From Sphingopyxis sp. BSN-002 (GTDB lineage Bacteria; Pseudomonadota; Alphaproteobacteria; Sphingomonadales; Sphingomonadaceae): a stretch of 64,000 nt of DNA. The stretch's first letter is position 1. Each line of letters opens with the position of its first letter. Of the stretch, positions 8,227 through 58,963 are shown one piece after another. The stretch is taken from NCBI RefSeq assembly GCF_022024275.1, contig NZ_CP091804.1, forward strand, positions 1,550,001 through 1,614,000, read 5' to 3'. A program made the position numbers and the translations under genes. A model generated the notes under the pieces. It did no database searches. It worked only from the letters and a program-made list of their open reading frames with translations, and was not told where the DNA came from.

Positions 8227-9348
8227 TTAGTTGCCCGAACCCGGACCGTACTTGATTTCCACGCGACGGTTCTGGTCGTTGCGGACGCCGTCGGCGGTCG
8301 CAACAGCCGGACGGCTTTCGCCGAACGCTTCCGACGAGATCGAGCCATCCGAGATGCCACGAGCCGTCAGGTAGCCACGGACCGCAGTGTTGCGGCGTTC
8401 CGACAGACCGACGTTGTACTTGGCCGAACCCGAGCGGTCAGCGTGACCGGCGAGCCAGACCTGCTGGCCGGTGCAGCCACGGTTGTAGGCGCTGATCGCG
8501 TTGTCGAGGGTCGCAGCCGCTTCCGGCGTGATGTTCGACTGATCCCAGTCGAAGTACACGATGTACGGACCCGGATCGCAAACCGGAGCCGGCGGCGGAG
8601 CCGGCGGGGTCGGCGGCGGCGGAGCCGGCGGCGGCGGGGCGGGCGGCTGAGGCGTTTCGACCGGAGCCGGGGCGCCGCCGAAGTTATAGGTCAGCGTGCC
8701 GAGGATCGAGTGCGAACGGAAGCGCGTCGAAACGTCGCGGCCAAGCTGGTCGACCAGGTCGAGGTTGCTGGCGTTGAAGAAGCGATACTTCAGGCCGACG
8801 TCCCAGTTCTTGGTCAGCGGAGCGCGAACGCCCGCGATCGCCTGCCAGGCAAAGCCCGTGTCCGAATCGTCCAGGAACGCACCGGCGAAAACCGGCTCGA
8901 CCGAAACGCGAGCGACACCGGCACCACCGCCGATGAAGCCCTGAAGGCCATCGTCGTCACCGAAGTCGAGCAGACCGTTGACCATGAAGCTGAGGGCGTT
9001 CGAGTCGCCGTTCAGCGGGGTCGCGCCGGTGAAGGCTGCGCCCGAACCGTTGGCGGTCTGCGGAATGCCCGGGGTCGCGAACGTCCCCGACGTGATGTCG
9101 GCTTCCTTGTAGCCGACTTCGACTTCCGCGCGGAAACCGCCGAAATCGTAACCGACAGTGCCTTCGACATCATAGCCCTTGCGATGATCGAGCGAACCGG
9201 CATTGTTGACCGTGCCGATGTCGAGATCCATGTCTTCGACGATCATCACGCCACCACCAACTCCGACATACCAGGAGTTGTCGCGCGCCAGAGCCGGCGA
9301 CGCCAGGGCAGTGGAGGCCAACGCCATAGCGACGGCAAGCTTCCTCAT
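8227..9348 (-). CDS. ompA: OmpA-family outer membrane protein
   Basis: A 373-residue precursor. Residues 1-21 are a signal peptide ending ASPALA. An eight-strand beta-barrel of the OmpA type fills about 22-225, with aromatic strand ends such as SWYVGVGGG. A Pro-rich linker (about 228-258, mostly P and A) leads to the periplasmic OmpA domain, which anchors the envelope to peptidoglycan; here YFDWDQSNITPEA and NVGLSERRNTAVRGYL are the family motifs. The start at 9348 is preceded by AAAGGGGA. A strong terminator follows. A high expression level is likely. Confidence 0.93.
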   Translation of the reverse strand: MRKLAVAMALASTALASPALARDNSWYVGVGGGVMIVEDMDLDIGTVNNAGSLDHRKGYDVEGTVGYDFGGFRAEVEVGYKEADITSGTFATPGIPQTANGSGAAFTGATPLNGDSNALSFMVNGLLDFGDDDGLQGFIGGGAGVARVSVEPVFAGAFLDDSDTGFAWQAIAGVRAPLTKNWDVGLKYRFFNASNLDLVDQLGRDVSTRFRSHSILGTLTYNFGGAPAPVETPQPPAPPPPAPPPPTPPAPPPAPVCDPGPYIVYFDWDQSNITPEAAATLDNAISAYNRGCTGQQVWLAGHADRSGSAKYNVGLSERRNTAVRGYLTARGISDGSISSEAFGESRPAVATADGVRNDQNRRVEIKYGPGSGN

Positions 9349-9478
9349 AGTAGATTCCCCTTTCAATTGAGATTTACGTCTCGTCAGACGTCCTACTCGT
9401 CGCTTTGGTTCCGTGCAAGCTAACAAATCGTCAATCTGTTGCCAAAAAGTCGCACTTCCCGTGCGAAGACAGGCAAAA

Positions 9479-9931
9479 TCAGCCTGAAATCAGAATGCCC
9501 TGCGCCTCAAGGAGCAGAATCAGCGCGGCGATCGCGGAGCGCGCCTCGGAATCGATTGTGACACCGCCCGCCGGACTCGCAATCGCGTCCGGCGCGACCC
9601 ACGCACCGGCATGATAACGCAACCACGCGCCGTCCGACAGACGAACGACCCGCATGCCCGGTCGCGGCGGTGCAAAACGCCAGCCGCCACCGCTCCAGAC
9701 GGCGAGCTTGCCGCCCTCGCCGTCCCATGCGCCCGTCGCTGCGGTATCCACCAGCCAGCATTGCCCCTCGGCGGGCGATGCCGGCGGGACGGCAAGCGGA
9801 CCATTCTCGATCGCGGCATGGACAAGCGCATCCAGCAAGGCCAGCGCCTCGTTGTGCACAACCTCCTTCTGCGCCTGCGCCACGGCCAGCAGCGGCAGCG
9901 CAAAACGCGCCGTCTTGAGCATATCGGTCAT
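9479..9931 (-). CDS. DUF2793 protein, last gene of the gene transfer agent remnant
   Basis: A 150-residue protein beginning MTDMLKTARFALPLLAVAQA, then QKEVVHNEALALLDALVHAA, the conserved opening of DUF2793 proteins found at the downstream end of RcGTA-like clusters and in some phages. The rest is rich in short glycine and tryptophan strands (CWLVDTAATGAWDG, WSGGGWRFAPPR), fitting a tail-fibre or sugar-binding role. The frame is intact. It lies 11 bp downstream of the C-terminal piece of the GTA tail protein, in the normal order, though the rest of that cluster is destroyed, so it may be a relic. Confidence 0.75.
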   Translation of the reverse strand: MTDMLKTARFALPLLAVAQAQKEVVHNEALALLDALVHAAIENGPLAVPPASPAEGQCWLVDTAATGAWDGEGGKLAVWSGGGWRFAPPRPGMRVVRLSDGAWLRYHAGAWVAPDAIASPAGGVTIDSEARSAIAALILLLEAQGILISG

Positions 9932-9942
9932 CGGTTTGTCCT

Positions 9943-10338
9943 TCAGGTCAACGGTACGAAAAGCGGCGCAGAGAGCGCGAAATCCCCCACCTGGCGAATG
10001 GCGAGCATATGCCCCGGCGCGAGCGCCGCGATCGTCGCCGCCGCGATCGAAAGCGAAGGTTCGCCGGTTTCCCACGGCCCGACGCCCGCCGAGGGAGGAA
10101 CAAGCTCGACACGCCATTCCTCGCGGCTTTCGCCGAGCGGCAGGTCCACGCCGTCGCGCCAGCCCGCATCGGCCCTGCTGCGCCGGATCCAGCCGACGAC
10201 AACGCCGCCCGCGCCGTCGGTCCGGATCCGGCCATGCACCGGTGCGAGCGGCTGCAAGGCACGCCCGGCCGGCGCAATCGCGACATGCCCGATTTCGGTA
10301 TCGCCGCGCGAAGTCCATTGCAGTTCGGCTTCCCCGCT
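9943..10338 (-). pseudogene. C-terminal fragment of GTA host-specificity tail protein (gp15-like)
   Basis: Minus-strand translation ends VGDFALSAPLFVPLT, preceded by RALQPLAPVHGRI and VVVGWIRRSRADAGWRDGVD, which is the C-terminal region of the large RcGTA-like baseplate/host-specificity protein. The intact protein is more than a thousand residues; only about 130 codons are kept here. Upstream, similarity stops near position 10338, where the sequence of the same gene's N-terminal third continues on the opposite strand. The boundary is approximate. Confidence 0.75.
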
Positions 10339-10341
10339 CTC

Positions 10342-10590
10342 GGCAAGGGGCGCCCGTCGACGACCGAATACAGCTATGCGGTATCGCTGGCCGTTGCACT
10401 GTCTTCGCGGCCGATCCGCGCGATCCGGCGCATCTGGGCCGACGGGAACCTGCTTCGCGGATCGGGCGGCAGTTTCAGCGAGCGCTGCACCTTTCGCTGG
10501 CACGACGGCAGCGAGGATCAGGCGCCCGACTCGCTGGTCGCGGCAGCCGTGGGAATCGGATCGGCCAGCGCCTTCCGGGGACTGGCCTAA
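10342..10590 (+). pseudogene. Inverted internal fragment of the same gp15-like tail gene
   Basis: On the plus strand, opposite to all other GTA pieces, the frame from 10342 reads GKGRPSTTEYSYAVSLAVAL, then RIWADGNLLRGS and DQAPDSLVAAAVGIGSASAF, ending RGLA and a TAA at 10588. This is the region of gp15 that should directly precede the YAVFEELELASFGNRIP segment found on the minus strand at 10873. The piece is therefore inverted and displaced. No promoter or start codon suggests it is expressed. Confidence 0.75.
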
Positions 10591-10873
10591 CCGCCTCTTC
10601 CGTTCGGGGAGGCGAGAGCCTCCAGCCATCGGGACCGCCCTGCAGACGAATCCGGTCGACCTCGCACAGCGGTGCCAGCGCGTCGCGAACGCGGTCGCCT
10701 GACGCGGCAAAGCCGGCAAAGGCCCAGTGCCCCCGGCATCGGCCCGTCTCGCCGAGCAGGTCGTCGCCGACCAGCCCCGCATCGATGCCACCCTCGTCGG
10801 CCTCCACCTCGAAGGTCAGCGACGGGATACGGTTGCCGAAACTCGCAAGCTCCAGTTCCTCGAACACCGCATA
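10591..10873 (-). pseudogene. Internal fragment of gp15-like tail gene, fused to capsid fragment
   Basis: Minus-strand reading from 10873 gives YAVFEELELASFGNRIPSLT, continuing with FEVEADEGG and QGGPDGWRLSPP near 10600. In intact gp15 proteins this follows immediately after the FRGLA motif that is now on the other strand. Upstream it is joined without a gap to the capsid fragment in a different frame. Confidence 0.75.
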
Positions 10874-11541
10874 TCCTCGGCCTCGACCACCGGATAGCCG
10901 AGCAAGGTTGCCGCCTGCCCCTCGACCATCCCCGGCTGCCAGATGAAGGCGCCGTCGGTCGTCTTGAACTTGCGGATGCGGCTCAGCGTGTCCGAATTCA
11001 TCACCCAGCACGCCCCCTGCCGGTACGGCGCCTTCAGCGAATGGACGAGCTCGACCAGCTTGTCCTGCGGGTTCGACGCCGGAAAGGCGCCCGCGGTCCC
11101 CGTCGCGAGATACTGCAGCGACCCGAAGGCGCGCACGCTGTCGATCTCGTTCGTCGCCGTATAGGTCAGGAACCCCTTCGGCCGGTTCGTGCCGTTGCCG
11201 TTCACGAACGCGCTGCCCTCGGCGATCGCGAACTCGCGGCCGAGCTGCTCGGCCAGCCAGTCCTCGACGTTGAACATCGCATCGTCGAGCATCGCCTGGC
11301 TCGCCGCCGGATTGGCATAGAGCTCACCCGTCGGCGGCACGATTTCGGCAAAGCTGCGCGTCGCGGTCTCGGGCCGCGCCGCGGTCTCGCCGACCCAGCC
11401 CGTACCCATCGATCCCGTCGCGACCAGCTTGCGATAGCCGCTCGTCCCCGTCTGCACGACCGTCGCGATGCTCCGGACCGGCGACAGCGTCTTCAGCGTC
11501 GCCGCGATGCTGCCGTCGATCTCGCGCGGCACCGCATACCC
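10870..11541 (-). pseudogene. HK97-fold major capsid protein fragment (GTA gp5-like)
   Basis: About 224 codons of an HK97-type major capsid protein: YAVPREIDGSIAATLKTLSP at the start, then LVATGSMGTGWVGETAARPE, VEDWLAEQLGREFAIAEGSA, FVNGNGTNRPKGFL and PGMVEGQAATLLGYPVVEAE. It stops at the EAEDM motif near 10870, before the last 40 or so residues that carry the end of the P-domain. The N-terminal scaffold/protease region (about 150 residues) is also missing. The piece begins at a junction with a terminase fragment in another frame, so no functional capsid protein can be made. Confidence 0.85.
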
Positions 11542-11638
11542 CCGGCGCGTCCAGCACGCGCCGCATCGCGGCGTTGACCCGCGGCGTCGTGGTCACGATC
11601 ATCCGTTCACGCGCGGCTTCCGCCGCTGCACCGGCCCA
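11540..11638 (-). pseudogene. Terminase large subunit fragment
   Basis: Thirty-three codons reading WAGAAAEAARERMIVTTTPR followed by VNAAMRRVLDAPG. The IVTTTPR motif follows the Walker B region in the ATPase of GTA and phage terminases. The frame is bounded upstream by a stop and downstream by the fusion to the capsid fragment. The remaining several hundred codons of the gene are absent. Confidence 0.6.
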
Positions 11639-11667
11639 TTATGTTGCGGCCCGATCTCGTCATCCAT
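11599..11667 (-). other. 22-codon ORF with good ribosome binding site at the head of the GTA remnant
   Basis: On the minus strand GGAGG lies 9 bases before an ATG at 11667 that opens MDDEIGPQHNGPVQRRKPRV and stops at 11599. It overlaps the terminase fragment in another frame. It may be the surviving translation start of a lost GTA gene. No protein family was recognised. Confidence 0.3.
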
Positions 11668-11879
11668 CGCCCACGACCTCCAAAAGCATAAAGGCCGGAT
11701 CACCCTCCCGCATCGGAAGAGCGCCGGCCCGAATCGCAATTCTTCATGATGCGACACTTGTGCCATAACAGCGTGACGATGTCAATAGAAAATAACCTAT
11801 ATGGTGAAATCCTGATATTGCCGATAGCTAGGTTGATTGGGATTACGCCTTGTTTACCTGTGTTTGCCATGATCGCGCC

Positions 11880-12191
11880 ATGGCAGGCACGCAGGCACCA
11901 AGGGGCTTCGCTCTCATCTTCGCAATCGTGGGTATTCCGCTCATCATTTGGAATGCTGCGGACGCCAGTGGCGAATTAGGTGCACTCGACGCATCGAGCA
12001 GCACGGAGGCGGCCCGCATTGATTACTGCGTTGCAAAGGCTGCAGAATTCGAGCCCGAGATGCCCGCGCCTCGCCGGACGTGCGAGTGCATCGTTGCCAA
12101 GGCGGCCGCGCAAGGTGCCCTCAAGGACTATGGCGCTTATGACGAGACCAAGCTCGAATCCATAATCGGTGAATGCACGCGCGGCGGCTGA
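11880..12191 (+). CDS. Small membrane-anchored cysteine-containing protein, unknown
   Basis: A 103-residue protein (MAGTQAPRGFALIFAIVGIP at the start) with one N-terminal hydrophobic segment at residues 9-25 and a soluble C-terminal part. Four cysteines are placed in YCVAKAA, RRTCECIVAKAA and GECTRGG; the repeated C-x-AKAA pattern suggests two helical hairpins linked by disulfides in the periplasm. A ten-residue upstream extension is possible but has poor coding quality. I recognise no family. The stretch from 11668 to 11879 is less GC-rich and holds nothing I can identify; the gene may have its promoter there. Confidence 0.55.
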   Translation: MAGTQAPRGFALIFAIVGIPLIIWNAADASGELGALDASSSTEAARIDYCVAKAAEFEPEMPAPRRTCECIVAKAAAQGALKDYGAYDETKLESIIGECTRGG

Positions 12192-12289
12192 TACGCGTCA
12201 ACAGTTGCCCTTTCCCGTCCCCACCGATTGACCCCCCGCCCCGGATGGTTACACATTCAACCATCCACCGGAAAAAGGGGCACCCACTG

Positions 12290-14410
12290 ATGCGTAAACT
12301 CGCCTTCCTCGGCGCGAGCCTTCTCACCCTCGCCGCCCAGCCCGTTCTCGCACAGGAAGCCCCGGCTTCAGAACCGGCGGCTGCCACCTCCGCCTCCGCC
12401 GCCGGCAGCGCGCGCACCGCTCCCGAGCGCCGCTTCACCGGGGACGACCTCTTCGACCTGTCGATCGCCTCCGATCCGCAAATCAGCCCCGACGGCCGGA
12501 GCATCGCCTATGTCCACCGGTCGAACGACATCATGACCGACCGCGCCGTCAGTTCGATCTGGCTGATCGACACCGCGACCGGCGAAGAAACCCCGCTCGG
12601 TGCCAACGACGGCGCCACCTTCTCGCCGCGCTGGTCGCCCGACGGCAAGCGGCTTGCCTATGTTTCGACCGCCGGCGGCGCGCCGCAGCTATGGGTGCGC
12701 TGGATGAACGGCGGCGAGGCGGTACGCCTCACCGGCCTGCCGACCTCGCCTTCCTCGCTCGCCTGGTCGCCCGACGGCCGCACGATCGCCTACACGATGC
12801 TCGTCAAGGACGACGGTCCCGGCTTCGGTTCGGCACCGAAGAACAAGCCCGAAGGCGCCAAATGGGCCGACCCGCTCGAGGTCCACGACATGCTCGCCTA
12901 CAAGGCCGACGGCGAAGGCATCGTCGAACCCGGGTTCGAGAAGATCTTCGCCGTTCCCGCGACCGGCGGCTCGCCGCGCCAGCTGACCTTCGGCCCCTAT
13001 CATGACGGCGGCCCGCTGAGCTGGTCGCGCGACGGCCGCACGCTCTATTTTTCCGCGAACCGCAAGCCCGACTGGGAAAAGGATCCGGTCGAGAGCGAGG
13101 TCTACAGCCTCGACGTCGCGAGCGGCGCGGTCACCGCGCTGACCGACCGCAACGGCCCCGACGCGAACCCGCTCGTCTCGCCCGACGGCGGCAGGATCGC
13201 GTATCTCGGCTTCGACGACAAGATGCGCGCCTATGAGAATAGCCAGCTCTACGTTATGAACCGCGACGGGTCGGGCAAGCGCAGCCTGACCGGCAACTGG
13301 GATTACAGCGTCGATGCGATCCAGTGGGCGGCCGACGGCAAGGCGCTCTACGCGCAGTATGACGACCATGGCGAGACGAAGGTCGCGCGCATCGGGCTCG
13401 ACGGCGCGGTGCGTACCGCCGCGACCGGCCTCTCGGGCGGCGGGCTCGATCGTCCTTATACGGGCGGCAGCTTCACCGTCTCCGACGCCGGCGCGATCGC
13501 CTTCACCGGCGGCACTGCGACGCGCCCCGCCGAGGTGCAGCTTAACCGGGGCGGATCGTCGCGCATCCTGACCGACCTCAACCGGTCCCTCCGCGAAGTC
13601 AAATCGCTGGGCGAGGTGCGCAAGATCACCGTCGCCTCGAGCCACGACGGCAAGACGATCGAGGGCTGGCTGACGCTGCCCCCCGGCTATCGCGACGGCC
13701 AGCGCGTGCCGCTGATCCTCGAAATCCACGGCGGCCCCTTCGCGGCCTATGGCGGCCATTTCTCGACCGACAACCAGCTTTACGCCGCCGCGGGCTATGC
13801 CGTCCTCTCGTCGAACCCGCGCGGGTCGACCAGCTATGGCGCGGCCTTCGCGAACGAGATCGACAAGCAATATCCGGGCAACGACTATTTCGACCTGATC
13901 AGCATCGTCGACCGCGCGGTCGAACTCGGCGTCGCCGACCCGAATGCGCTCTTCGTCACCGGCGGCTCGGGCGGCGGCGTGCTGACCAGCTGGATCGTCG
14001 GCAAGACCGACAGGTTCAAGGCCGCGGTCGCGCAGAAACCCGTGATCAACTGGACGACGCAGGCGCTCACCGCCGACGGCCCCGGCTTCTTCGGCCCCTA
14101 TTGGCTCGGCGCAGAGCCGTGGGAAAAGCCCGACCTCTTCTGGTCCCGCTCCCCGCTTTCGCTCGTCGGCAATGTAAAGACCCCGACGCTCGTCATTGTC
14201 GGTGCCGAGGATTACCGCACCCCCGTCAGCGAGTCCGAGCAATATTACACCGCGCTGCGTCTCCGCGGCGTGCCGACCGCGCTGATCAAGGTACCCGGCG
14301 CCAGCCACGGCGGCATCGCCGCGCGTCCCTCGCAATCGGCCGCCAAGGCCTCGGCAATCCTTGCCTGGTTCGGGAAATACCGGAAGGGCTGGACCCCGCC
14401 CGCACCCTGA
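12290..14410 (+). CDS. Secreted S9-family (prolyl oligopeptidase-type) peptidase
   Basis: A 706-residue precursor with a signal peptide (residues 1-21, ending PVLA). An N-terminal beta-propeller contains several WD40-like PD40 repeats (PQISPDGRSIAYVHRS, PRWSPDGKRLAYVST, LAWSPDGRTIAYTM). The C-terminal alpha/beta hydrolase has nucleophile S560 in VTGGSGGGVL, D641 in VGAEDYRTPVSE and H673 in GASHGGIAARP, so the catalytic triad is complete. Such enzymes cleave short peptides, often after proline or alanine, in the periplasm. The start at 12290 is preceded by AAAAAGGGG and gives the signal peptide at the extreme N-terminus. Confidence 0.92.
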   Translation: MRKLAFLGASLLTLAAQPVLAQEAPASEPAAATSASAAGSARTAPERRFTGDDLFDLSIASDPQISPDGRSIAYVHRSNDIMTDRAVSSIWLIDTATGEETPLGANDGATFSPRWSPDGKRLAYVSTAGGAPQLWVRWMNGGEAVRLTGLPTSPSSLAWSPDGRTIAYTMLVKDDGPGFGSAPKNKPEGAKWADPLEVHDMLAYKADGEGIVEPGFEKIFAVPATGGSPRQLTFGPYHDGGPLSWSRDGRTLYFSANRKPDWEKDPVESEVYSLDVASGAVTALTDRNGPDANPLVSPDGGRIAYLGFDDKMRAYENSQLYVMNRDGSGKRSLTGNWDYSVDAIQWAADGKALYAQYDDHGETKVARIGLDGAVRTAATGLSGGGLDRPYTGGSFTVSDAGAIAFTGGTATRPAEVQLNRGGSSRILTDLNRSLREVKSLGEVRKITVASSHDGKTIEGWLTLPPGYRDGQRVPLILEIHGGPFAAYGGHFSTDNQLYAAAGYAVLSSNPRGSTSYGAAFANEIDKQYPGNDYFDLISIVDRAVELGVADPNALFVTGGSGGGVLTSWIVGKTDRFKAAVAQKPVINWTTQALTADGPGFFGPYWLGAEPWEKPDLFWSRSPLSLVGNVKTPTLVIVGAEDYRTPVSESEQYYTALRLRGVPTALIKVPGASHGGIAARPSQSAAKASAILAWFGKYRKGWTPPAP

Positions 14411-14447: not shown

Positions 14448-14577
14448 GCGCACCGCCGGACCGCCCCTCGCCCCCGCCCTGTCGGCACTTCGTAGAACAG
14501 TGGTTGACATCGCGGCTCCGCGCGCAAAATTCCCCCATCGACCGGTCTGCCGGCTCAATTTTCGAAGGGGCATCTTC

Positions 14578-17418
14578 ATGAAAGTCTTTCCTTTTCTGGG
14601 CGCCGCGACGCTCGCGCTGGCGACGGCCGTTTCGGCCAATGCCCAGACCGCCGCAAAGCCCGCCGGCGCTGCCACCACGGTGCCGCCGATCGCCTACAAG
14701 GAACGCATCCTGAAGAACGGCCTGCGCGTGCTGTCGTTGCAGGACACGTCCACGCCCAATGTGATGGTGTCGGTCTGGTACGACGTCGGATCGAAGCACG
14801 ACCCCGAAAAGCGCTCGGGCTTCGCGCACCTCTTCGAACATATCCTCAGCCGCAAGACCGTGAACATGCCCTACAACATGATCAACCGCCTGACCGAGGA
14901 TGTCGGCGGGGTGCGCAACGCCTCGACCAGCTTCGACCGCACCAATTATTACGAGACGGTCCCCGCGCAATATCTCGAAACGATGCTGTGGACGCACGCC
15001 GAGCGCATGGCGCGTCCCGTCGTCGACAAGGAAGTGTTCGAGACCGAACGCAACGTCGTGAAGGAGGAACTGCGCCAGCGCGTGCTCGCACCGCCCTATG
15101 GCCGGCTGTTCAACTTCGCGCTCAGCGAAAACACCTTCGACGTCCTGCCGCACCGCCGCCCGGTGATCGGCACGATCGCCGACCTCGAGGCGGCGACGCT
15201 CGACGATGCACGCGCCTTTCACGAGGCCTTTTACGGCCCCGACACCGCGACGCTGATCGTCGCGGGCAATTTCGACGAGGCACGCCTTCAGTCGCTCGTC
15301 GACAATTATTTCGGCGCGATTCCGAAGCGCGCGAAGGCCATCCCGCTGGCGATCAAGGGCAAGGAGCCGCCGATGGCGCCGCGCCGCGTCAACGCGACCG
15401 GACCCAATGTTCCGCTGCCCGTCGTCGGCGCGATCTACAAGGCGCCGGGGGCGGGCAATCCCGACACTCCCGCGCTCGAGGTGATGAACGCGATCCTGTC
15501 GCGCGGCGAAAATTCGCGGCTGCACAAGGCGCTGGTCCGCACCGGGATGGCGAGCGAGATCGACGCGAGCGTCGACTTTACCGAGGAAGCCGGCGGCATC
15601 ACCCCCTTTGCGATCCTCAGCGACGGGCAGGATCCCGAAAAGGTCGCCGCCGCGCTCGACGCGGTGCTGGCGGATATCGCCGCAGCCCCGGTCTCCGACG
15701 CCGAACTCGCCGAGGCCAAGACCGAACTGCTCGCCGCGACCCTTGCCGAACGCGAGACCTTCTCGGGCCGCGCCTTCGAACTCGGCGAAGCGCTCGTCCT
15801 CACCGGCGATCCCGCCGCCGCGAACAAGCGCCTCGATGCGATCGCGCGCGTGACAAAGGCCGACGTCGCGCGCGTCGCGAAGAAATATCTCGACCCCAAG
15901 GCACGCGTCGAGCTGCGCTACACGGCGGGCGACGGCGACCCGAAGAGTTGGGCCAACCCCCGGCCGATGCCCGTTTTCCCGACCGTTCCCCCCGCGACCG
16001 GTACCCCCAACGAGCTGGCGGCCGAGGCGGCCCGGCAAGCGCCGCCGGCGCCGACCGCCGCGCCCGCGGTCACCCCGCCGAAGATCGCCGAAAGCCGCCT
16101 CGACAACGGCATCCGCGTCGTCGCTGTGCGGACCGGCGCAGTACCGCTCGCGACGCTCAGCGTCGTGATCGGCGGCGGCTCGTCGACCGATCCGAAGGGA
16201 CGCGCCGGGGTCGCCACCATGGCCGCCGACCTTGCCGCAAAGGGCACGCCGACGCGCTCGGCCGAACAGATCGCCGCCGCGCTCGAAAGCCTCGGTGCCA
16301 CGATCACCGCCGGCGCCACACCCGACGGCAGCATCCTGTCGGTCACCGCGCCCGCTGCTAACCTCGATGCGGTCGGGACGATCCTCGCCGACGTGGTCCG
16401 CGGCGCGAACTATCCCGAAGAGGAGTTCGGGATCGAACGCAAGCGCATGACCGACGGCCTGCGCGTCGCGCTCAACAATCCCGGCGCGATCGCCGCGATG
16501 GTCGCACAGCCCCTCCTCTACGGCGCGGCGCCCTATGGCGGGCAGAGCGGCGGCACGCCGAAAAGCCTCGCCGCGATCGGCCGCGACGACCTCGTCGCGT
16601 ATCGCCGCACCTGGTGGCATCCCGCAAACATCTCGGTCGTCGTCACCGGCGGCATCGACCCGGCGGCCGGCAGTGCGCTTGCCGCCCGCCTGTTCGCCGA
16701 CTGGAAGGCCGATGGCCCGGCGCCCGCACTGCCCGGATCGCGCGCGGGCGCGGCCCAGCCGCCGCGCACGATCGTCGTCGACCTGCCCGGCGCAGGACAG
16801 GCCGCAGTGCTCGCCGCGGTACGCGGGGTCAGCCGCAGCGACGCCGGCTACCCGTCGCTCCTTCTCGCCAATTCGGTGCTCGGCGCCGGCTCGAACGGCC
16901 GCCTCTTCACCGAAGTGCGCAGCAAGCGCGCGCTGAGCTATGGCGCCTACAGCTCGATGCCGGCGCGCGCCGACACCGCGCTGCTCGTCGCGAGCGCGCA
17001 GACGAAGAACGAGAGCGCGACCGAAGTCGCCGAAATCTTCCTGAACGAGTTCAAGCGCCTCGGAGCCGAGCCTATCACCGCCGACGCGCTCGCCAAGCGC
17101 CGCGCCTTTCTCGACGGCGCCTACGGCCGCCAGCTCGAAACCGGCGGCGGCTATGGTACGATCGTCTCGGGACTGATCCTGCAGGGGCTGCAGCCTGCCG
17201 ACGCGCTCACCTATAGCGCGCGCCTCGCCGCGGTGACCCCCGAGGCCGCGAACGCAATCGCGGCGAAAGCCGTCGCGCCGGAAAACGCCTCGCTGATCAT
17301 CGTCGGCGATTCGGCGAAGTTCATCGACAAGCTTCGCGCGCTGCGCCCCGATCTGGTCGTCATCCCGGCGAGCAAACTGGATCTGGAGTCGCCGACGCTG
17401 GGTGCAGAGGCGCCCTAG
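14578..17418 (+). CDS. Secreted M16 zinc metallopeptidase, two fused M16 units
   Basis: A 946-residue precursor with a signal peptide ending VSANAQ. The first M16 unit (about 45-480) has the inverted zinc motif H84-L-F-E87-H88 and the downstream ligand E164 in NVVKEEL, 76 residues on, as expected. The second unit (about 500-930) lacks an HxxEH motif: GVATMAADLAAKGT stands in its place, so it is probably the non-catalytic half that closes the chamber. The two halves that are separate genes in many bacteria are thus one chain here. Conserved R/Y residues occur in RSKRALSYGAYSS. Likely a periplasmic peptidase clearing unfolded peptides. Confidence 0.92.
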   Translation: MKVFPFLGAATLALATAVSANAQTAAKPAGAATTVPPIAYKERILKNGLRVLSLQDTSTPNVMVSVWYDVGSKHDPEKRSGFAHLFEHILSRKTVNMPYNMINRLTEDVGGVRNASTSFDRTNYYETVPAQYLETMLWTHAERMARPVVDKEVFETERNVVKEELRQRVLAPPYGRLFNFALSENTFDVLPHRRPVIGTIADLEAATLDDARAFHEAFYGPDTATLIVAGNFDEARLQSLVDNYFGAIPKRAKAIPLAIKGKEPPMAPRRVNATGPNVPLPVVGAIYKAPGAGNPDTPALEVMNAILSRGENSRLHKALVRTGMASEIDASVDFTEEAGGITPFAILSDGQDPEKVAAALDAVLADIAAAPVSDAELAEAKTELLAATLAERETFSGRAFELGEALVLTGDPAAANKRLDAIARVTKADVARVAKKYLDPKARVELRYTAGDGDPKSWANPRPMPVFPTVPPATGTPNELAAEAARQAPPAPTAAPAVTPPKIAESRLDNGIRVVAVRTGAVPLATLSVVIGGGSSTDPKGRAGVATMAADLAAKGTPTRSAEQIAAALESLGATITAGATPDGSILSVTAPAANLDAVGTILADVVRGANYPEEEFGIERKRMTDGLRVALNNPGAIAAMVAQPLLYGAAPYGGQSGGTPKSLAAIGRDDLVAYRRTWWHPANISVVVTGGIDPAAGSALAARLFADWKADGPAPALPGSRAGAAQPPRTIVVDLPGAGQAAVLAAVRGVSRSDAGYPSLLLANSVLGAGSNGRLFTEVRSKRALSYGAYSSMPARADTALLVASAQTKNESATEVAEIFLNEFKRLGAEPITADALAKRRAFLDGAYGRQLETGGGYGTIVSGLILQGLQPADALTYSARLAAVTPEAANAIAAKAVAPENASLIIVGDSAKFIDKLRALRPDLVVIPASKLDLESPTLGAEAP

Positions 17419-58151: not shown

Positions 58152-58963
58152 GACGCCCGCCGCGCCTCCTCTTCGGCCCATGCCGCGTCGAGTTCGGCGT
58201 CGGTCAACGGCATCCTTTGCTCGCACGCGTCGCAATGCGGATGATCGGGACAGCGCAAGCGGTGCGCGCGCTTCACGAACGCGATGCGCCGGAGCAGCAC
58301 CGCGTCGGTTTCTTGCTGCGTCGCGCCCTGCACCTTGGCTGCGCCCTCTACCTTGTTGTCGAAGACCATTCCGCCGAAAAACTCGTCGCGCGACAGGAAG
58401 CGATCGCGCACCGCCGCGGGCAGCACATAGGCGTCGGCCTCCTCGGGCGTCAGATGCACATTCTGCCCGCCTTTCATGTCGCCGCGCTTGATCAGCAGCC
58501 CCAGCATCGAATCCGACGGCATGATCCGCCGCTCGACCTCCTTGCCGTTCCGGATGACGACCATCTCGCGCCCCGCAACCGCGCGCTCATAAGCGACCGC
58601 CTCCAGCCCGCGCAGCGCCCGCGCGATCGCCTCGCCGCACGCCTTGTCGAACGGCGCGAACAGCGCGCGCGATCGATTGACCGACGTCGTACTGACCCCC
58701 GCGATCCGCGCCGCATCGGTGATGCACCCCGTTTGCCCCAGCGTCGCCAGAAACACCCGCGTCCGCGCCGCCGTCCACCCGTCGGCGCGCACGCGCAACC
58801 CGGGCATGAAGGGATTGGAGTGCGCTTCTTTCCCCTCCCGCTTGCGGGAGGGGGAGCGAGACTTGCGGGCTTGCCCGCTAGTAGCAGCGGGGTGGGCACC
58901 ATCCCCCACTCCGCCCTTCGCTCCCGATTTCCCCCGCGAACCGCGCGCCACCTTACGCCCCAT
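58148..58963 (-). CDS. Helix-turn-helix protein (terminase small-subunit-like) with repeat-derived N-terminus
   Basis: A 271-residue protein. From about residue 58, RADGWTAARTRVFLATLGQT and DAARIAGVSTTSVNRSRA make a helix-turn-helix as in terminase small subunits and related DNA-binding proteins; the C-terminus has a CPDHPHCDAC cysteine pair. The start at 58963 has a good GGAGATGGAGCT site upstream, whereas M53 (58807) has none. The segment between (residues about 23-47) is encoded by a palindromic repeat read in frame. Function not known; phage or GTA packaging, or chromosome regulation, are both possible. Confidence 0.65.
   Translation of the reverse strand: MGRKVARGSRGKSGAKGGVGDGAHPAATSGQARKSRSPSRKREGKEAHSNPFMPGLRVRADGWTAARTRVFLATLGQTGCITDAARIAGVSTTSVNRSRALFAPFDKACGEAIARALRGLEAVAYERAVAGREMVVIRNGKEVERRIMPSDSMLGLLIKRGDMKGGQNVHLTPEEADAYVLPAAVRDRFLSRDEFFGGMVFDNKVEGAAKVQGATQQETDAVLLRRIAFVKRAHRLRCPDHPHCDACEQRMPLTDAELDAAWAEEEARRAS
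58832..58878. repeat. Palindromic repeat element inside the HTH gene
   Basis: A perfect 22-bp palindrome (58832-58853, CCCCTCCCGC-TT-GCGGGAGGGG) is followed by a second hairpin GCGGGC-TT-GCCCGC (58865-58878). Similar paired CTCCCGCTTGCGGGAG units are scattered in sphingomonad genomes. Here it is translated in frame in the N-terminus of the HTH gene. Confidence 0.7.

Follow-up and report, generated by a model that had tools for sequence, protein, structure and literature searches.

A decayed, partly inverted gene transfer agent cluster in a Sphingopyxis genome and the erosion of this locus across the genus

How did fragments of the terminase, capsid and gp15 genes of a gene transfer agent (GTA) come to lie fused side by side, one of them backwards, in the chromosome of a Sphingopyxis strain? 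The window analysed here, a stretch of 64,000 nucleotides, covers positions 1550001-1614000 of a genome assembled as a single contig of 3,732,098 bases (3.73 Mb), and coordinates refer to the window unless stated otherwise. Homology searches confirmed that 9943-11667 is a decayed RcGTA-like head-tail cluster lying in situ. On the minus strand it runs from the start of the ORF before terL through a terL piece, a capsid piece and gp15 pieces A and B, the latter inverted, to the gp15 C-terminus and the DUF2793 gene; homologues of terL, capsid and gp15 kept the order and strand of the cluster, with the exception of piece B, which departs in both. The original prediction had named terminase, capsid, gp15 and DUF2793 in this order with one gp15 piece inverted. 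Every piece was found by homology, the order and the inversion were borne out by profile and blastn matches, and the pieces matched congeners' whole clusters at the same site.

The last gene of the cluster, DUF2793 (9479..9931, minus strand, 150 aa), was intact as had been claimed, with an open frame and a match to PF10983 at E 1.7e-30, which was the sole match to this family in the genome. Next to it, gp15 piece C (9943..10344, minus) holds the C-terminal ~131 codons and the stop in an open frame, matched phrog_4271 at 1187-1277, and was 67-73% identical by blastn to the gp15 C-terminus of congeners' clusters. The inverted piece B (10341..10589, plus strand, 249 bp of gp15) matched phrog_4271 at 95-179 (E 3.2e-27) and showed 78-84% DNA identity with congeners' gp15. 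Piece A (10590..10873, minus) matched phrog_4271 at 176-211 (E 4.9e-8) and, by blastn, congeners' gp15; the DNA match to whole gp15 spans 10611-10873, since the left end lies in a variable stretch where ~10590-10610 are assigned by position only. The major capsid (g5) piece (10869..11538, minus) matched PF05065 at E 3.9e-63 over profile positions 2-213 of 280, so that the gene has lost its N-terminal part and the domain its last 67 profile positions. It was up to 95% identical to congeners' capsid DNA among the matches listed, and named Sphingopyxis were its nearest relatives in the DNA search. About 20 codons remain of terL, the large terminase gene (11539..11600, minus); they gave blastn identities of 73-86% in eight aligned loci (86% over 56 bases to L053) and map inside terL of the whole cluster L044. 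The first codons of the ORF preceding terL, at the position of RcGTA g1, were placed at 11602..11667 (minus, start at 11667) by alignment to L046 and L050; this ORF is identified by its position only, and Pfam gave no match for its counterpart in L044. The matches of capsid, gp15 and DUF2793 lie far outside what chance would give, and the short terL piece is probably assigned correctly, judged by its sequence together with its place.

The flanks were colinear with congeners' loci, so the remnant occupies the same site as the whole clusters of its relatives. On the left side, colinearity with the congeners' left flank and the 3' end of the cluster (from 6027 in L047) extends to ~10340, and on the other side 11624-11805 corresponds to a block that lies upstream of terL in L046 and is matched over shorter lengths in other loci. 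The domains of the whole cluster L044 are, in order, terminase, portal, protease, capsid, tail completion, tail tube, GTA-gp10, baseplate hub, NlpC, gp15 and DUF2793. When the 16-kb DNA of this cluster was searched against our genome, the matches were confined to the remnant locus, to interspersed repeats of short length and to a single relative of a cargo ORF; this whole-cluster query gave no portal, no protease and none of the tail genes up to gp14, in agreement with their predicted absence. Profile searches of the genome with phrog_4271 and PF05065 returned the pieces at the locus and no second gp15 or capsid. A search of 9300-12400 against Rfam gave no match at E up to 0.1. The interspersed repeats are ~65 bp long and were seen at 13 places in the genome, one of them at 58829-58898; the same repeats stand at the gp14-gp15 border of the cluster of G057 (L044, ~14517-14590). 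The closest known systems are the RcGTA-like clusters of Sphingomonadales, for example those of Sphingopyxis sp. H050 (L056) and S. soli BL03 (L057), which have the same genes at the same site and, among the matches listed, capsid genes 94-95% DNA-identical to the remnant piece. The remnant differs from them in that the ORF before terL, terL, capsid and gp15 are fragmentary and 249 bp of gp15 are inverted.

The predicted junctions (10338-10342, 10587, 10870 and 11540) were right to within a few bases, but a fifth one near 11597-11608 had been missed. All junctions were read from one assembly, and the parental sequences had to be taken from relatives at ~70-95% identity, which makes the lengths of microhomology estimates. 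By alignments to both parents, piece C and inverted B share CGGC at 10341..10344 (junction 1); inverted B and A meet at 10589..10590 with a 2-bp overlap, TA (junction 2); A and capsid share GCATA at 10869..10873 (junction 3); capsid passes into terL at 11538..11539, the capsid end being CACCGCATA at 11530-11538 (junction 4); and terL passes into the start of the preceding ORF at ~11597-11608, placed to this range (junction 5). Microhomology of 4 and 5 bp was thus present at two of the five joins, the other three having 0-2 bp or being placed only to a range, and in three clusters random joining would give overlaps of at least 4 bp at 3.4-4.2% of joins. Pieces A and B adjoin each other in whole gp15 genes and were cut at one point, with two bases (TA) on both sides. 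An IS630-type target duplication was considered for this overlap, as we take this family to use TA targets, and two bases were too little to judge. The 9-mer CACCGCATA ends not only the capsid piece but also piece A (10865-10873). In 17 whole-length clusters it occurred 0-4 times on the same strand in ~15 kb, and only 10 of the 17 have it at the A|B point. Nine shared bases at two random points had p 3.5e-5 to 7.6e-5; the 9-mer was picked after the fact, and with ~28 end pairs this becomes some 1 in 350 to 1 in 700.

Very probably, the locus is the in-place wreck of a Sphingopyxis RcGTA-like cluster, in which gp15 broke and the ends were joined without a template, guided by microhomology, or by template switching. 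The best reading is that of one or few closely spaced error-prone repairs of this break. A double-strand break in gp15, in ...CACCGCA/TA/GG..., would have met no intact template at repair. Side B would have been joined backwards to the gp15 C-terminus at CGGC, and side A would have run into the capsid gene via GCATA, left it at its CACCGCATA copy and gone on into terL and then into the ORF before terL; alternatively to such switching of synthesis, the fragments may have been cut and re-joined by NHEJ. About 12-15 kb of head and tail genes would have been lost, judged from the cluster length of congeners. Ku and LigD genes are adjacent in our genome (L165), and across the genus Ku was commoner in genomes with an eroded locus, though not significantly (13/16 versus 40/64, p 0.24). 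Rearrangements in starving E. coli, ascribed to microhomology and template switching in the available part of PMC3161906, resemble the remnant in short junction homology and inverted stretches, and end-joining scars with 1-7 bp of microhomology, as described in the portion of PMC9870152 at hand, resemble it in short junction homology and large deletions. The remnant differs from both as a natural scar in another species, for which the mechanism is read from sequence.

The predicted history of nested deletions plus an inversion stood in part. Deletions and one inversion were found, but a nested series is unsupported because the pieces are free of internal damage, a single break point is common to A and B, and short homologies tie the junctions; one or few events close in time fit as well as or better than such a series. 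A slow history is doubtful yet deserves some weight. In it, several independent deletions would have followed one another over a long time, together with two overlapping inversions or one inverted transposition. In its favour, deletions that keep the gene order occur often in the genus (15 other eroded loci), and the change from C-A-B-capsid to C-B'-A-capsid requires at least two inversions or one three-break event. Against it, the tested pieces keep open frames, the capsid piece shows no sign of relaxed selection, A and B were cut at one point with nothing lost between them, and one 9-mer is common to two piece ends. Moreover, five other eroded loci look older, with a DUF2793 gene that has an internal stop or no N-terminal part, and the GafA activator is damaged or missing in five other eroded genomes.

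The decay looks recent from the open frames, from selection near that of intact clusters, and from the GafA gene (DUF6456, 160-aa ORF, E 7.9e-41), which is intact here. All tested pieces were open in frame, the terL piece being too short for judgement. The dN/dS comparison took in capsid, A, B and DUF2793 and gave medians against relatives of 0.21 for capsid (0.20 among relatives), 0.16 for B (0.24), 0.23 for A (0.24) and 0.23 for DUF2793 (0.26). The values for A, B and DUF2793 say little on recent time because dS to their nearest relatives is at least 0.44; the capsid alone, with dS <0.2 to its nearest relatives, has power on recency. Against S. soli the capsid piece had 2 nonsynonymous and 26 synonymous differences, while ~44 nonsynonymous changes would be expected if it had been unconstrained for its whole own half of this divergence, and the constraint-free share of that half was at most ~14% (95% bound, equal halves assumed). 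Nonsynonymous counts against other close capsids were higher (10 for H050, 14.5 for L064 and 19.5 for L124), and these changes may lie on their side. The few nonsynonymous changes together with the intact GafA gene therefore indicate that constraint on the capsid ended a short time ago, in keeping with a single event or several in quick succession. Recent acquisition of the capsid gene by transfer was also considered, as it reaches 95% identity against ~70-84% in the gp15 pieces. This idea was set aside as needless because the capsid stretch is 81-95% identical in at least 56 of the 79 other genomes and because g5 is reported to be under strong codon selection in Sphingomonadales (in the accessible part of PMC9765227).

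That the true chromosome carries an intact cluster, scrambled by the assembler, is improbable. Mis-assembly would likewise yield undamaged pieces, and the other 79 genus genomes are without these junctions among the matches listed. However, for a single 3.73-Mb contig in which no further cluster DNA was found, the assembler would have had to drop more than 10 kb, deletion scars are present in 15 other assemblies, and short microhomologies with a 249-bp inversion are unlike the usual assembly errors. The assembly has the scrambled locus at this place, and no intact cluster was found elsewhere in the genome.

Apart from DUF2793, what the searches found of the head-tail set is fragments of terL, capsid, gp15 and the first ORF, and the completeness rule given in the available part of PMC10883770 asks for 14 of 17 head-tail genes. 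Judging from gene content, the strain should hardly be able to make GTA particles from this locus. Genes of the ComEC and DprA families are present, and they say little on GTA uptake because these families also match in 10 and 11 of 14 control genomes. As the upstream block, GafA and the ComEC and DprA families are kept, the strain may still take up DNA. The same part of PMC10883770 discusses a non-producing 'cheater' state, and we propose a likeness to it for this strain, known here from genes.

Most likely the remnant is without function and the DUF2793 gene has simply yet to erode. Much less probable is that a fused or truncated gene, either the 238-aa capsid-gp15 ORF or DUF2793, was kept for a new function. 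The 238-aa ORF is open, DUF2793 is intact, the upstream block is retained, and a DUF2793 match is left in 14 of 16 eroded loci. On the other hand, the capsid lacks its N-terminal part and domain end, recency suffices to explain open frames, DUF2793 was damaged in five of eight other eroded loci (G009, G012, G014, G020 and G033), and its match is absent in G034 and G066. Selection to keep DUF2793 was accordingly rejected on these eight loci. An unrelated prophage remnant can practically be dismissed: head and tail genes of phage type would suit it, but flanks and gene order are those of the congeners' GTA cluster and the capsid is up to 95% DNA-identical to their GTA capsid among the matches listed.

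The locus had also been called a rare snapshot of decay, which did not hold in the genus. In a sample of 80 genomes from 80 species, our own genome (G000) included, a capsid-family match of some kind was found in 64 and a full-length capsid at the GTA in 58, and 16 of the 80 species had an eroded GTA locus within one contig (G000, G005, G009, G012, G013, G014, G019, G020, G029, G032, G033, G034, G038, G040, G066 and G069). The 16 leave out G026, G042, G047, G064 and G071, where contig ends or incomplete assembly could explain the lack of a full-length capsid, and G028, which has a frame-broken capsid. On a tree of ompA, well-supported branches forced at least 12 label changes; it has 46 rows rather than all 80 genomes and uses one gene beside the locus, and the changes are losses only if clusters were never regained. 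The part of PMC10883770 at hand moreover describes GTAs that were pseudogenized or lost in multiple lineages of Alphaproteobacteria, and gives the 'cheater' reading. These cases are like the remnant in that production was lost, repeatedly across lineages; the remnant differs from what is described there in an inner scar anatomy that can be read, with an inversion and a capsid piece between gp15 and terL. The sphingomonad reference in the available section of PMC9836097 is S. alaskensis, and a limited literature search found no published account of such scars in Sphingopyxis. GTA decay itself is thus known and common, and the inversion is one unusual feature, seen here only.

The erosion maps were made by tblastn with the proteins of one cluster (L044), in which 'gp8?' and 'orf1?' are positional labels, the former most likely being the opposite strand of the cargo ORF; the gp15 search covered 60 of the 80 genomes. 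Like pieces were kept in G009 and G033, and in G034 and G066, and the remaining eroded loci differed. No inversion was seen in the other 15 eroded loci, which kept order and strand in tblastn maps that are blind to very short inverted bits. The upstream block was kept in 12 of these 15, split in two of them. DUF2793 was open in G019, G029 and G032, the other three of the eight loci checked. GafA was truncated, frame-broken or missing in G009, G012, G033, G034 and G066, all with strongly eroded loci, that is in 5 of 16 eroded genomes against 2 of 58 with a full-length capsid (G015 and G055; p 0.004, kinship ignored), an indication that decay reaches the activator later than the cluster.

Seven pairs of eroded and sister clusters were compared for joins, of which G069 and G013 gave no readable join and G032, G038 and G040 were partly readable. 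Eight deletion joins in five other eroded genomes had BLAST overlaps of 3, 4, 14, 5, 0, 5, 10 and 0 bp, perhaps inflated, as BLAST ends can overrun a join, and microhomology at GTA deletion joins looks general in the genus. The locus of G029 (L137) differed from that of its close sister G028 (L121) by one 13.5-kb deletion with a 3-base overlap. In G028 itself, capsid and gp12 are frame-broken.

Why GTA production persists though non-producers should win is left open in the available part of PMC10883770. The 16 eroded loci among 80 species are natural loss events open to dating, and for some of them a close sister has all or nearly all of the cluster (G029/G028 and G069/G043), G028 and G029 being a good natural pair for dating GTA loss. 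The comparison hints at an order of decay in which inner head and tail genes go first, then gp15 and DUF2793, and then GafA. To this the remnant adds an inversion-bearing scar readable base by base, and it changes no known mechanism. As a speculation to which we give little credence, Sphingopyxis GTA loci might be self-inactivating break hot spots, where breaks from production (terminase cutting or forks that stall in the induced operon) would be repaired, with no template, by Ku-LigD or by microhomology-driven template switching. If so, non-producing, DNA-receiving strains would arise again and again, and the scrambled locus would preserve one of these events in full, including the copying of a capsid stretch into the scar.

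Upstream of the cluster, a strongly conserved non-coding block is retained at about 11693-11807, as seen by alignment to congeners' upstream block, and is perhaps the control region of the GTA operon. It has TTGACA on the minus strand (11780-11785), and an inverted repeat TAACC-N5-GGTTA of several relatives has GGTGA here (11793-11807). The core of the block was recognisable even in Sphingomonas (L099), and an insertion of ~2.4-3.8 kb splits it in L061, L074, L078, L079 and L080. Between capsid and gp6, many clusters of the genus carry a large ORF that encodes an endosialidase-chaperone domain (PF13884; L044 6210-7637, L045 2297-3769), for which no tblastn match was found in G028, G041, G046, G050, G056 and G065. 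A second GTA fragment at genome positions 1,759,726-1,760,311 was considered and rejected: it contains a small ORF which congeners carry within the cluster, antisense to the GTA genes, and which is located in another region in our genome. In L044 it spans 9100-9489 on the minus strand and has no Pfam match; our own copy is at G000:C1 1759716-1760072 (L129 4717-5073), with what we take to be a signal-peptide-like start, beside a presumably recombinase-like ORF.
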